From an uncultured Methylobacter sp. (GTDB lineage Bacteria; Pseudomonadota; Gammaproteobacteria; Methylococcales; Methylomonadaceae): DNA of 41,504 nucleotides. A model generated the notes under the pieces. The model saw nothing but the letters and a program-made list of their open reading frames with translations, was not told the DNA's origin and ran no database searches. Shown piece by piece: positions 27,082-30,207 of the stretch (positions are counted from its first letter, which is position 1; each line of letters begins with the position of its first letter). The stretch is from the NCBI GenBank assembly GCA_903832775.1, contig CAILCX010000145.1, forward strand, positions 1 through 41,504. Reading direction: 5' to 3'. The translations under genes were made by a program, and so were the position numbers.

Positions 27082-28317
27082 CTATTTAGTAGCATTCAAT
27101 GCAACTTGAATTGATTTGGCAGTCAGTTGATTAGAATCTTTATGTAGCGCATTTTTAATATCAATGGCTTGCCAATCGGGATGAAGTTCCAGCAAAAGTG
27201 CGGCCACGCCGGCAACATGCGGGGTAGCAAACGAACTACCTGTCATAAAATCATATGCCTGGTGCGGAACAGTCGTCAAAATATCCTGACCTGGTGCAAT
27301 AATGCCAACCTGATTATCTCCACCATCGAATCCGACAGCAAGAACACCAGGAACATTTGCTGGAAAGCCTCCTACTTGAGACTTGGCAGGAACTGCAGCG
27401 ACTACAATAATTCCTTTTGCCAAAGCTTTCTCAACCAATTGCCTAAGCAGGGGATCATCGGGGCCGCTTAGACTGAGATTAACTATCCGACAATCAAGGC
27501 TAATAGCTTGATTTAAAGCCAACGCCAAAGTAAAGCTATTGCAATGCGCCGCCAGTGAATTTGGCTTGTCAGGCCAACAAGCCCGAAAGGCTAAAATTTC
27601 AGCTTCTGGTGCTATCCCAACAATCCCTATTCCATTGTCTGCGCGTGCAGATAAAATACCCGCCACAGCAGTACCATGGATATCTGCAACATTATGATCT
27701 AAGGGCTCAGGCCCCATATTTTCTGACGATTTAATCTGACCTTTTAAATCAGGATGATCAATATCTACCCCGGTATCAATAATGGCTATTCGCACGCCCC
27801 GCCCCGTAGAACTTCGATGCAAGTTTTCTATTTCTAATGCATTAAAACCAGCCTGCAAGTGCACATAAGGATCTGTTGTACTAACCGGAAAACCATGCTC
27901 CTTGCTCCCAAGTACCTCGAAATTATGCATTTGCTGAACTAGGGAAACCTGCGGGTCTTTTTGCAATTCGACCATGACCTGCACCAACTGAAATCCCTTG
28001 GGTACATCGTAAACTACACAACTAACACCCAGTGTAGTCACCGGCCATTGGGTAATGTACTGTAAATGATGACGATCAGCCAAATCATGTGCAAAACGGG
28101 TGCTCCAACCAGAGTTATTATATAGACCACGACTCCGATAACCCTCCTGAGTATTAGCAGGCAACTTCCGATCTATGGTTCGATCGACAAAAGTAACTAA
28201 TAAGCGACGATCAGAATCTGCACCACTATCACCCAAATGATAAGCATCAGATGTATTAGCACAACCGTTTAATAATGCGAATAAAAAAGTTAAAAAGAGA
28301 AAATAAGAAGATTTCAT
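27082..28317 (-). CDS. Lipoprotein subtilisin-like serine protease (S8)
   Basis: Predicted secreted, lipid-anchored subtilase of 411 residues from the ATG at 28317; the frame extends upstream to 28392 but this start gives a clean lipoprotein signal with Cys19 after LLNG. Residues 36-135 resemble a subtilase prodomain (VPKGFQLVQVMVELQKDPQVSLVQ). The catalytic domain carries Asp181 (IAIIDTGVDIDHPD), His214 (DIHGTAVAGILSA) and Ser362 (MTGSSFATPHVAG). The stretch normally holding the oxyanion-hole Asn (AAAGN) reads VVAAVPAKSQVGG, so that residue appears to be lacking. It starts seven bases after the anti-sigma gene, in the same operon. Its target is unknown; a role in signalling with the anti-sigma factor is inference. 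Confidence 0.88.
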   Translation of the reverse strand: MKSSYFLFLTFLFALLNGCANTSDAYHLGDSGADSDRRLLVTFVDRTIDRKLPANTQEGYRSRGLYNNSGWSTRFAHDLADRHHLQYITQWPVTTLGVSCVVYDVPKGFQLVQVMVELQKDPQVSLVQQMHNFEVLGSKEHGFPVSTTDPYVHLQAGFNALEIENLHRSSTGRGVRIAIIDTGVDIDHPDLKGQIKSSENMGPEPLDHNVADIHGTAVAGILSARADNGIGIVGIAPEAEILAFRACWPDKPNSLAAHCNSFTLALALNQAISLDCRIVNLSLSGPDDPLLRQLVEKALAKGIIVVAAVPAKSQVGGFPANVPGVLAVGFDGGDNQVGIIAPGQDILTTVPHQAYDFMTGSSFATPHVAGVAALLLELHPDWQAIDIKNALHKDSNQLTAKSIQVALNATK

Positions 28318-28324
28318 GACAGCA

Positions 28325-29068
28325 TCAGTGCTCCAACACAGGTTCAGCCAACACGACATTCTGCTGACTACGTAACAAGGATATTGTTTCATTTAAATCA
28401 AGGCTATTTTTATCTGCACCCAATCTCACTATATAGGCGCCAATTTTATTAGGCCCTTCTATAATTTGCCCATGGATTTTTTCAAGCACATTATCAATGT
28501 CCACCGTGGACAAGGACTCTTTAAAAACCACGTTTAATTTTACACCCTCTTCAATTTCCGGTTTGGTAGCCGATAGCGTGATATAATCAGCTAAATCAGA
28601 TGAATGTTGCCCGTTATGCATCATAATTGGAATAATTACCAAAACCAACGAGGCCGCAATTGCAAAGTTTTTTAACGTATCAACATTAAATCCTAAGAAT
28701 CGTCTACCTCGACTTGAAGTTTTACCCAGTAAATTTGGCTTACCGCCCCCACTATCTTTTGTATTTGTATTTACATTTACCTGAACTAAAGTGGGTGCAG
28801 AAGTTTTCAAGTCTGGCCTGACTGCTCTAAGCCTCGCCTCTAAACTAGCAAAAGATGTTTCGGCTGCCACCTCTAGAATCGATGATTGCTTGACAGTTTT
28901 AGCCAGTTTATTCAAGCTATTCATCTGACTTCTGCACATAATACATGTACGAAGATGTTTTTCGACCAACTGGTTCTCAACCTGATCTAGCGTTTTATTT
29001 TGATACCAAGGCAATAGTAACTGCATTTGTTGGTGTGTATCGGCTGATAGCAAATTTTGGTTATTCAT
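28325..29068 (-). CDS. Membrane zinc-finger anti-sigma factor with prodomain-like periplasmic domain
   Basis: Predicted inhibitor of the ECF sigma factor encoded at 29515-30141. The start at 29068 gives 247 residues; an earlier in-frame start at 29119 lies inside the preceding gene. The N-terminus has an H-x3-C-x2-C zinc motif (His38, Cys42, Cys45) typical of zf-HC2/ZAS anti-sigma domains, preceded by LLLPWYQNKTLD. One membrane helix spans about 134-150. The C-terminal periplasmic part (about 175-247) has the VLEKIHGQIIEGPNKIGAYI-VRLG pattern ending NVVLAEP, which resembles subtilase inhibitor/prodomain (I9-like) modules. The next gene is a subtilase. I infer that the protease could bind or cleave this domain. 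Confidence 0.8.
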   Translation of the reverse strand: MNNQNLLSADTHQQMQLLLPWYQNKTLDQVENQLVEKHLRTCIMCRSQMNSLNKLAKTVKQSSILEVAAETSFASLEARLRAVRPDLKTSAPTLVQVNVNTNTKDSGGGKPNLLGKTSSRGRRFLGFNVDTLKNFAIAASLVLVIIPIMMHNGQHSSDLADYITLSATKPEIEEGVKLNVVFKESLSTVDIDNVLEKIHGQIIEGPNKIGAYIVRLGADKNSLDLNETISLLRSQQNVVLAEPVLEH

Positions 29069-29072
29069 AACT

Positions 29073-29498
29073 TTAATTCTCTTGGTTATACGTAAACGCT
29101 TGTAGCTTTTTACGGGCATTTGACATACTGGACTTCACTAAATTCTCTGAACTATTAATCATTTTGGCAATATCCTGATAGGATCTTCCATGAAAAAAAG
29201 TTAGCCCGATAATAAGTCGCTGGTCCGGCTCCAGTATCCCAAAAGCAGAACTAAGCCACTCTTCATTATCAAATCTCTTATCTGAAGCAATAAGCCCACA
29301 AATCCAGATAGATAGCTTACTAGCGTAATCTGAAAATTCTTGTTTTTCCAAAACCAGTGATAAATCGCTTCCCAAACAAATATTTTCCAGATGATTTTTT
29401 ACTCTTTGCAAATCATTGTTTTCCAAGGTTTGATTAAGATACCAAGGCAAAAGCGACATGACTTGTTGGTGCTGATCGTTTAATAATGAAGTTCGCAT
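29073..29498 (-). CDS. Chimeric protein: anti-sigma-like N-terminus, sigma region 4 C-terminus
   Basis: Intact 141-residue ORF between sigma and anti-sigma genes, starting at ATG 29498 (a TTG at 29531 is possible). Residues 5-44 (LLNDQHQQVMSLLPWYLNQTLE to KNHLENICL) match the start of the downstream anti-sigma factor (LLSADTHQQMQLLLPWYQNKTLD to KHLRTCIMC), but the zinc motif is broken. Residues 58-136 match the sigma factor from YQSKLSTWIFGIA onward and keep region 4 (WLSSAFGILEPDQR, SYQDIAKMINSSENLVKSS), with about 35 residues of linker missing. It lacks region 2.1-2.2 needed for core polymerase. The likely origin is deletion after tandem duplication of a sigma/anti-sigma pair. The ribosome site is weak. 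Confidence 0.75.
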   Translation of the reverse strand: MRTSLLNDQHQQVMSLLPWYLNQTLENNDLQRVKNHLENICLGSDLSLVLEKQEFSDYASKLSIWICGLIASDKRFDNEEWLSSAFGILEPDQRLIIGLTFFHGRSYQDIAKMINSSENLVKSSMSNARKKLQAFTYNQEN

Positions 29499-29514: not shown

Positions 29515-30141
29515 CTATTGATTACTTGCAAAATTTTTTAACTTCTTTCGCGCATGAAACATACGCGTTTTTACAGTATTTTCCGGACAATCTAAAATTT
29601 TGGCAATTTCCTGGTAATTAAGCTCGTGATAGAACGTCAGTTCAATTACCGCTCGTTGATCCGGTGTCAAAATCCCCAAGGCAGTGTTCAACCAGTCTTC
29701 ATTTTCCCAACTGTGTATTGTAAGACTCACTTCGTCGCCCTCAACATCTAGCAAATCATCAACATTGACTTCACTTTTATGTTTAGCATTCTTGGACATA
29801 GCCTTAAGTGCCTTGTTATAAGCGATTCCAAAAATCCAGGTAGAAAGCTTACTCTGATATTTAAAACGATCCGGGCGCTTCCAAATTACCAACAAAGTTT
29901 CCTGAATCAGCTCCTCAACAAAATCTGGATCACGGGTTACACGAAGAATGAACCGAAATAACCTGGGATAGTAAATCTTGTAAAATACTTCAAATGCAGA
30001 CGCGTCACCTTCAACAATAAGCCTAAACAAAACATACTCATCAACACCTGCCTCTGATTTTTCAGACAAGGATTTCTGACTCCGGTTTGGAACCAACCTT
30101 AAAGGTGTTGATATCTCTGTATTTGCCTTTGATATGTTCAT
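29515..30141 (-). CDS. ECF-type RNA polymerase sigma factor
   Basis: Group 4 sigma factor of 208 residues. After a 35-residue variable N-terminus it has region 2 (FRLIVEGDASAFEVFYKIYYPRLFRFILR, then EELIQETLLVIWKRPDRF and the -10-binding YQSKLSTWIFGIAYNKALK) and region 4 (LGILTPDQRAVIELTFYHELNYQEIAKILDCPENTVKTRMFHARKKL), the -35-binding helix-turn-helix. It is first in the operon that also encodes the chimera, the anti-sigma factor and the subtilase, so it probably controls that operon or envelope functions; the regulon cannot be seen from here. Confidence 0.9.
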   Translation of the reverse strand: MNISKANTEISTPLRLVPNRSQKSLSEKSEAGVDEYVLFRLIVEGDASAFEVFYKIYYPRLFRFILRVTRDPDFVEELIQETLLVIWKRPDRFKYQSKLSTWIFGIAYNKALKAMSKNAKHKSEVNVDDLLDVEGDEVSLTIHSWENEDWLNTALGILTPDQRAVIELTFYHELNYQEIAKILDCPENTVKTRMFHARKKLKNFASNQ

Positions 30142-30207
30142 CTCATTTCAAGTATCGTTAAGTAGGTTCCAAACTAAGGTAATAAAGTTCAAATGCCAGA
30201 AAAAAAA

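Follow-up and report, generated by a model that had tools for sequence, protein, structure and literature searches.

A selectively maintained fusion of an anti-sigma factor and its partner ECF sigma factor in two genera of Methylococcales

Introduction

Pairs of sigma and anti-sigma factors are usually described as a two-body lock. Casas-Pastor and colleagues describe two conserved interfaces, one between anti-sigma helix 1 and the DNA-binding region of sigma-4 and the other between helix 4 and the polymerase-binding region of sigma-2 (PMC7406223). The same work names RpoE R178 as the partner of RseA D11, and states that the sigma-4 residues of the helix 1 contact also touch the -35 element (PMC7406223). 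A study of RslA reports a crystal complex (3HUG) in which sigma-4-L without sigma-2 is held by a zinc anti-sigma factor, although isolated sigma-4-L showed no RslA binding by SPR and bound only on co-expression (PMC2877774). The same paper gives an about 8-fold weaker binding of sigma-L by zinc-free RslA (PMC2877774). Two departures from the simple pair are mentioned in PMC8103513: PhyR, a sigma-factor mimic that serves as an anti-anti-sigma factor of Alphaproteobacteria, and split sigma factors, exemplified by SigO with RsoA. Among the matches listed for literature on sigma/anti-sigma fusions, no title or abstract opening describes a gene of the kind reported here, and among those listed for subtilisin or prodomain anti-sigma factors and S8 context, none describes such an operon.

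The gene considered here lies in a 41,504-nucleotide contig of an uncultured Methylobacter sp., the whole of which is referred to as the window. It was originally predicted, from the DNA letters, to join the start of an anti-sigma factor to the end of a sigma factor, and to have arisen on the spot by a deletion between two tandem pairs.

The Host Operon

On the minus strand of the window, the gene order is a TorF/Gcw_chp-type gene, an ECF sigma factor (29515-30141; 208 aa, with regions 2 and 4), the fusion ORF (29073-29498), a zinc-type anti-sigma factor (28325-29068; 247 aa, with HLRTCIMC in its N domain), and an S8 subtilase (27082-28317; 411 aa) in which LLNGC, on inspection by eye, marks a lipoprotein-type signal. 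These positions bear out the predicted arrangement, in which the fusion of anti-sigma N-terminus and sigma C-terminus stands between a complete sigma factor and a complete anti-sigma factor. The anti-sigma factor has one hydrophobic helix (residues 129-153 in the model), taken by eye as a membrane helix, and a subtilisin-prodomain-like C-terminal domain with the order beta-alpha-beta-beta-alpha-beta. A Pfam match of this domain to Fervidolysin_NPro (PF22148) is above cut-off at E 4e-5, and 9 of 12 homologues match at E <= 0.1. When the AF2 model of the anti-sigma factor is compared to the PDB with Foldseek, subtilisin prosegments score best (3whi, 1spb, 3cnq; E 0.003-0.008), with ferredoxin-like folds such as ribosomal S6 close behind and none under 0.001.

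The adjacency of sigma factor, anti-sigma factor, and subtilase on one strand is found in 34 of 38 distinct annotated loci with a sigma match (from 40 rows, as L063 repeats G073 and L064 repeats G007), a set limited to at most 30 loci per search, which covers part of the matching genomes, 32 of 81 in the order search. The four loci that do not have the trio are labelled Acidobacteria, Chloroflexi, Acetothermia, and Nitrospirae. The operon is conserved in Methylococcales. The ORFs of sigma factor and anti-sigma factor touch or overlap in 32 of the 34 trio loci, as judged from longest ORFs, the starts of which may be called too early; in the window and in G073, a metagenome-assembled genome (MAG) of another genus, the fusion occupies the gap between them. 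Together, the prodomain-like domain and the neighbouring subtilase suggest an ECF switch in which the prodomain-like inhibitor on the anti-sigma factor would meet a cognate protease. At two loci, L022 and L023 (G106 and G107), the match to the sigma C-terminus crosses an in-frame TAG, apparently giving a shorter C-terminus.

A promoter-like pair lies at 30142-30207 on the minus strand, in the interval that separates the sigma gene from the porin-like gene upstream. The likely promoter of the operon within it (30165-30192, minus strand) reads TTGAACTTT-N13-GGAACC. Of 26 loci, 19 have the pattern TGAAC[CT]-N14-17-GG[AC]A no more than 130 bases ahead of the called start of the sigma gene, and 23 have its TGAAC[CT] half when this is considered alone. 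The placement of a promoter-like pair ahead of the sigma gene suggests autoregulation. A scan of the genome's own sequence with the operon motif at up to 2 mismatches gave 82 matches against 49 for the reversed control, which is too noisy to define a regulon.

Composition of the Fusion Gene

The fusion ORF runs on the minus strand from an ATG at 29498 to a TAA at 29075-29073 and has 141 codons, encoding 141 aa; a TTG start at 29531 is possible, and would overlap the sigma stop. Its N part (residues 1-44; 29367-29498) corresponds to the region of anti-sigma helices 1-3. Residues 45-72 (29283-29366) are what is left of sigma region 2. About 30 residues of the sigma factor are then skipped, and residues 76-139 (29082-29273) are sigma region 4 (PF08281). 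The region 2 remnant (LSLVLEKQEFSDYASKLSIWICG) begins at about residue 45 and aligns to LLVIWKRPDRFKYQSKLSTWIFG at the end of region 2 of the sigma factor. Homology to the anti-sigma factor stops at the zinc motif, ahead of helix 4.

Both halves can be assigned by pairwise alignment. Residues 8-37 share 16 of 30 positions with the anti-sigma factor (two-sequence BLAST E 1e-8) and residues 76-139 share 35 of 64 with the sigma factor (E 4e-23), with 0 of 2000 shuffles scoring as high in either case. The crossed comparisons are at chance level: the N half against the sigma factor was equalled by 1967 of 2000 shuffles, and the C half against the anti-sigma factor by 330 of 2000. The fusion aligns in DNA as well, matching the anti-sigma gene at 62 of 97 bases and the sigma gene at 120 of 192. 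The ORF is therefore a real chimera, as had been predicted, of about 44 anti-sigma residues, a region 2 remnant, and region 4 of the partner ECF sigma factor. The similarity first proposed for residues 5-44 and 58-136 holds with slightly shifted limits: the aligned segments are those given above and sigma-like sequence begins near residue 45. The predicted lack of a core-binding region 2 is right in that most of the region is gone; the second deletion, inside the sigma part, had not been noted.

Profile searches agree with this composition. Sigma region 4 is recognized in the window fusion at E 4.4e-10 and 39.5 bits (cut-off 25.7), while the N half reaches 16.1 bits against zf-HC2, under the cut-off of 22.2. 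The latter is a weak criterion for judging the fusion, because the window's real anti-sigma factor also falls below it, at 17.7 bits. Region 2 (PF04542) gives no Pfam match at E <= 1 in the window fusion or the G073 fusion, about 28 residues of it being left, and no response-regulator receiver domain is among the matches of either at that threshold. As these families are defined by their full domain sets, the fusion is outside PhyR, the ECF sigma factors, and the zinc anti-sigma factors. The zinc site is broken, as had been noticed early on, since HLENICLG stands where the anti-sigma paralogue has HxxxCxxC and the ligands are gone.

The AF2 model of the fusion (mean pLDDT 77.5, pTM 0.60) predicts helices at 2-14, 17-21, and 27-40 and a well-predicted sigma-4 bundle, with a weak stretch at 42-55; in the alignment used for folding, the last few residues of the anti-sigma rows are misplaced. 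The bundle resembles the solved sigma-4 domains 3vfz, 5fgm, 3hug, and 2h27, with weak Foldseek scores for the fusion model (best E 0.017). The recognition helix reads SSENLVKSSMSNARKKL in the fusion vs. CPENTVKTRMFHARKKL in the adjacent sigma factor. In 21 sigma factors (from 21 of the 38 loci) the recognition helix has 12 invariant positions, and the window fusion departs from them at six, including replacements of T, R, F, and H by S, S, S, and N, respectively; the changed residues are presumably those that read the -35 element. The fusion retains the arginine aligned with RpoE R178 in an alignment to the 1or7 chain, a residue number that holds if chain 1or7_A begins with three extra residues. 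Of the -35-binding helix-turn-helix originally proposed, the sigma region 4 is thus present, while binding to DNA is doubtful.

A Second Copy in Another Genus

A second fusion is found in G073, on contig C263 at 323-766. The record CAIUYS010000263.1 (uncultured Methylococcaceae bacterium Ja1-D4_bin-692) has ORFs and coordinates equal to those of G073:C263. The gene order there is sigma factor (cut by the contig end), fusion, anti-sigma factor, and subtilase, so that the fusion holds the same operon slot as in the window. The two fusion proteins are 48% identical, share their junction, and are aligned with 0 indels over 139 codons, and their DNA identity is 62% over 134 codons. The G073 fusion retains a whole zinc motif, HLRSCILC, and exceeds both Pfam cut-offs, with 23.8 bits for zf-HC2 (22.2) and 62.8 bits for sigma region 4 (25.7). 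Its recognition helix differs from that of its own sigma factor at 2 of 17 positions, vs. 7 of 17 for the window fusion. An assembly artefact is unlikely, because the two copies come from two assemblies and have diverged to this extent.

The fusion is rare. Matches of any kind were found in 56 of 237 genomes of the family (E <= 1e-6) and 81 of 311 of the order (E <= 1e-8), with a limited number of candidates scored per genome; a match that spans both halves in one frame occurs, among the matches listed, in 2 of the 311, the window's genome and G073. A further draw of 369 class and 398 phylum genomes returned only the window itself at E <= 1e-18, a threshold that could miss a more diverged fusion, and the class draw includes some genomes of the same order. 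The same architecture therefore does exist elsewhere, in one copy in another genus, and these broader draws add no further one. A plasmid-borne origin was considered and set aside, as 72,556 plasmid records gave 0 matches at E 1e-5.

Origin of the Fusion

In trees of the sigma factor, anti-sigma factor, and subtilase, the window operon pairs as sister with the operon of the congeneric G043, which does not have the fusion (98/92, 93/91, and 96/93). The G073 operon lies near those of its own fusion-less congeners G052 and G082, with weaker support. The fusions themselves were placed with a joined alignment of anti-sigma N and sigma C codons (127 codons). They group together (SH-aLRT/bootstrap 87.8/91 for codons and 80.8/73 for amino acids), beside genes of the genus of G073 (95/74 for codons; 83.4/37, a weak value, for amino acids).

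The original prediction had explained the gene by a local deletion in the window. The recurrence of the same junction in another genus contradicts an origin from the pair found there. So does the AU test on the joined alignment, which rejects the topology that places both fusions with the window genes (tree E; p 0.003 for codons, 0.0016 for nucleotides, 0.042 for amino acids). Some other tests keep tree E with amino acids (p-SH 0.10), and its AU values for single parts with amino acids are 0.0503 for the N part alone and 0.172 for the sigma part alone. Two independent origins (tree B) are disfavoured by AU with p 0.032 for codons, 0.186 for nucleotides, and 0.070 for amino acids, and are disfavoured more strongly because junction and length are identical; tree B is marginally best on the sigma part alone with nucleotides. 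Old inheritance with losses, which unites the fusions at the base of the clade (tree A), has AU values of 0.097 for codons, 0.033 for nucleotides, and 0.508 for amino acids. With the G073 fusion beside its own sigma factor and the window fusion basal (tree D), the values are 0.013, 0.202, and 0.238 in the same order, and on amino acids of the N part by itself tree D comes out best. A single origin is likely.

The G073 fusion is 80% identical in DNA to its own sigma gene over 65 codons, with a dS of 0.59-0.85 by three methods; dS between the window and G073 sigma genes is 1.2-2.7 by the two methods that yielded an estimate. It follows from this closeness that the fusion either originated in the G073 lineage and was later transferred to the window lineage, or is older and was partly overwritten in G073 by gene conversion. 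The low dS between fusion and own sigma gene at L034 1-766 (G073) suggests a recent origin there or gene conversion.

A single deletion, as first envisaged, does not suffice, since a second in-frame loss lies inside the sigma part and is common to both copies. The adjacent double pair that had been put forward as the ancestor was not seen, by eye, among the matches listed at the above thresholds for the 237 family and 311 order genomes. The history may be pictured as a duplication of a sigma/anti-sigma pair that then collapsed through in-frame deletions; this most likely happened a single time, in the G073 lineage or close to it. The fusion would have reached the window lineage by recombination, or would have been inherited and lost several times. 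Overall, the fusion is older or more mobile than was originally assumed, is conserved as a protein, and is rare.

Selection on the Fusion

With a codon model that gives each fusion its own omega, the window fusion has values of 0.137 (tree C), 0.151 (tree A), and 0.265 (tree B), which are rough because its branch is long and saturated (3.4-5.4 for the whole alignment). Omega of 1 is rejected on all three trees (p 1.9e-9 for C, 6.4e-8 for A, and 1.4e-3 for B); for the N part alone, the same test gives p 0.018, 0.013, and 0.14. The G073 fusion has an omega of 0.30-0.32, and omega of 1 is rejected on one of three topologies (p 0.0024; 0.072 and 0.11 on the others). The window fusion is thus under purifying selection, and the suggestion that it had been kept as a coding gene is upheld by these tests.

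This weighs against the view, which is unlikely, that the gene is the scar of a duplication and deletion, slowly dying and with no function of its own. Such a view fits the rarity of the fusion (2 of 311 genomes), its absence at the corresponding operons of G043, G052, and G082, which are near relatives, and the degraded zinc site and DNA face of the window copy, part of whose losses could be decay given its long and saturated branch. A dying gene would not be expected to reject omega of 1 on three trees, nor to keep its frame open with 0 indels over 139 codons between copies at 62% DNA identity. An open frame would probably not have survived neutral drift: in a simulation that starts from the G073 fusion as a stand-in for the ancestor and has no indels, it stayed open in 54, 7, 6, 0, and 0 of 4000 runs at 0.2, 0.35, 0.5, 0.7, and 1.0 substitutions per site, respectively. 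Since the fusion is selected as an intact gene, it probably tunes the switch formed by the sigma factor and its inhibitor.

Possible Function

Judged from the sequence, both sides of the contact between helix 1 and sigma-4 appear to be present in the fusion, which seems to have neither anti-sigma helix 4 nor sigma regions 2.1-2.2, the two sides of the other contact. With one complete contact inside it, the fusion can either close on itself or bind helix 1 of the anti-sigma factor through its own sigma-4. No working holoenzyme is expected from the fusion alone because the main core-binding surface is absent. One interface being whole and the other absent, with the zinc site and DNA-reading helix degraded, a role in protein-protein contact is favoured; the changed recognition helix together with the retained arginine likewise fits a protein partner better than DNA. 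The residues equivalent to R178 also touch the -35 element, so the retained arginine alone does not separate the two kinds of binding.

The reading preferred here, tentatively and at somewhat less than even odds, is that the fusion acts as a sigma-4 decoy for the anti-sigma factor. The fusion would be co-expressed from the same operon as the sigma and anti-sigma factors, and its sigma-4 would take helix 1 of the anti-sigma factor, making it a weak anti-anti-sigma factor. Inhibition of the real sigma factor would thereby be loosened, and the threshold of a protease-linked envelope signal tuned. Because isolated sigma-4-L was not bound by SPR, a decoy made of sigma-4 only may be weak. The N part could also occupy the fusion's own sigma-4, which would leave a closed, inert protein.

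Other uses of the retained parts can be imagined. If the N part, with helices 1-3, bound sigma-4 of the real sigma factor, the fusion would be a soluble, non-membrane inhibitor, that is, an extra anti-sigma factor. Helix 1 is the conserved sigma-4 binder (PMC7406223), and the N part is kept in both copies, intact with its zinc motif in G073; however, the fusion has no helix 4, which is the part that blocks core RNA polymerase, its own sigma-4 competes in cis, and the window copy does not have the zinc ligands, while RslA without zinc bound its sigma factor more weakly (PMC2877774). This possibility is accordingly quite unlikely. A competitor for DNA, in which region 4 would sit on the -35 elements of the sigma factor's promoters without region 2 and repress them, is decidedly improbable. 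Region 4 is the best-supported part of the fusion, and the nearly unchanged recognition helix of the G073 copy would suit such a role, but region 4 on its own generally binds DNA weakly, and six of the seven differing positions in the window helix are invariant in the 21 sigma factors. Finally, the fusion could be the sigma-4 half of a two-part sigma factor, for which SigO and RsoA offer a precedent (PMC8103513). A complete sigma factor is encoded next door, no region-2-only partner was detected among the five operon-neighbourhood proteins scanned with Pfam, and the window copy has a degraded DNA face, which together make this last explanation very remote.

The decoy reading can be carried further, to a version that is possible but rather doubtful. 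The fusion would be a single-chain half-interface regulator that holds one of the two interfaces, with both of its sides, that lies between the genes of the two proteins from which it was cut, and that has been exchanged between genera; having dropped zinc and DNA binding, it would serve purely as an anti-anti-sigma decoy in an envelope-stress switch linked to a protease. If true, a third gene made from pieces of both partners and kept by selection would mean that such a switch can gain a tuning knob by duplication and deletion alone. As the fusion isolates one interface, it is a natural construct with which to ask if the contact between sigma-4 and helix 1 can by itself retune an ECF switch.

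Comparison With Known Systems

The N part of the fusion corresponds by homology to helices 1-3 of the local class I zinc anti-sigma domain (the class of ChrR, RsrA, RslA, and RsiW), and the G073 copy keeps HxxxCxxC. Unlike these domains, the fusion has no helix 4, membrane domain, or sensor domain and is joined to sigma-4, and the window copy has no zinc ligands. In its C part the fusion has region 4 of the local, RpoE-like ECF sigma factor, but region 2 is cut to about 28 residues and the main core-binding surface is missing. The proposed working of the fusion, a sigma-like surface that would titrate the anti-sigma factor, is analogous to that of PhyR; the fusion differs from PhyR in having no receiver domain, in offering sigma-4 only, in carrying anti-sigma helices, and in belonging to a different lineage. 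As with SigO and RsoA (PMC8103513), the sigma-4 unit of the fusion is separate from sigma-2, whereas here a full sigma factor adjoins it and the five neighbourhood proteins scanned include no sigma-2 partner.
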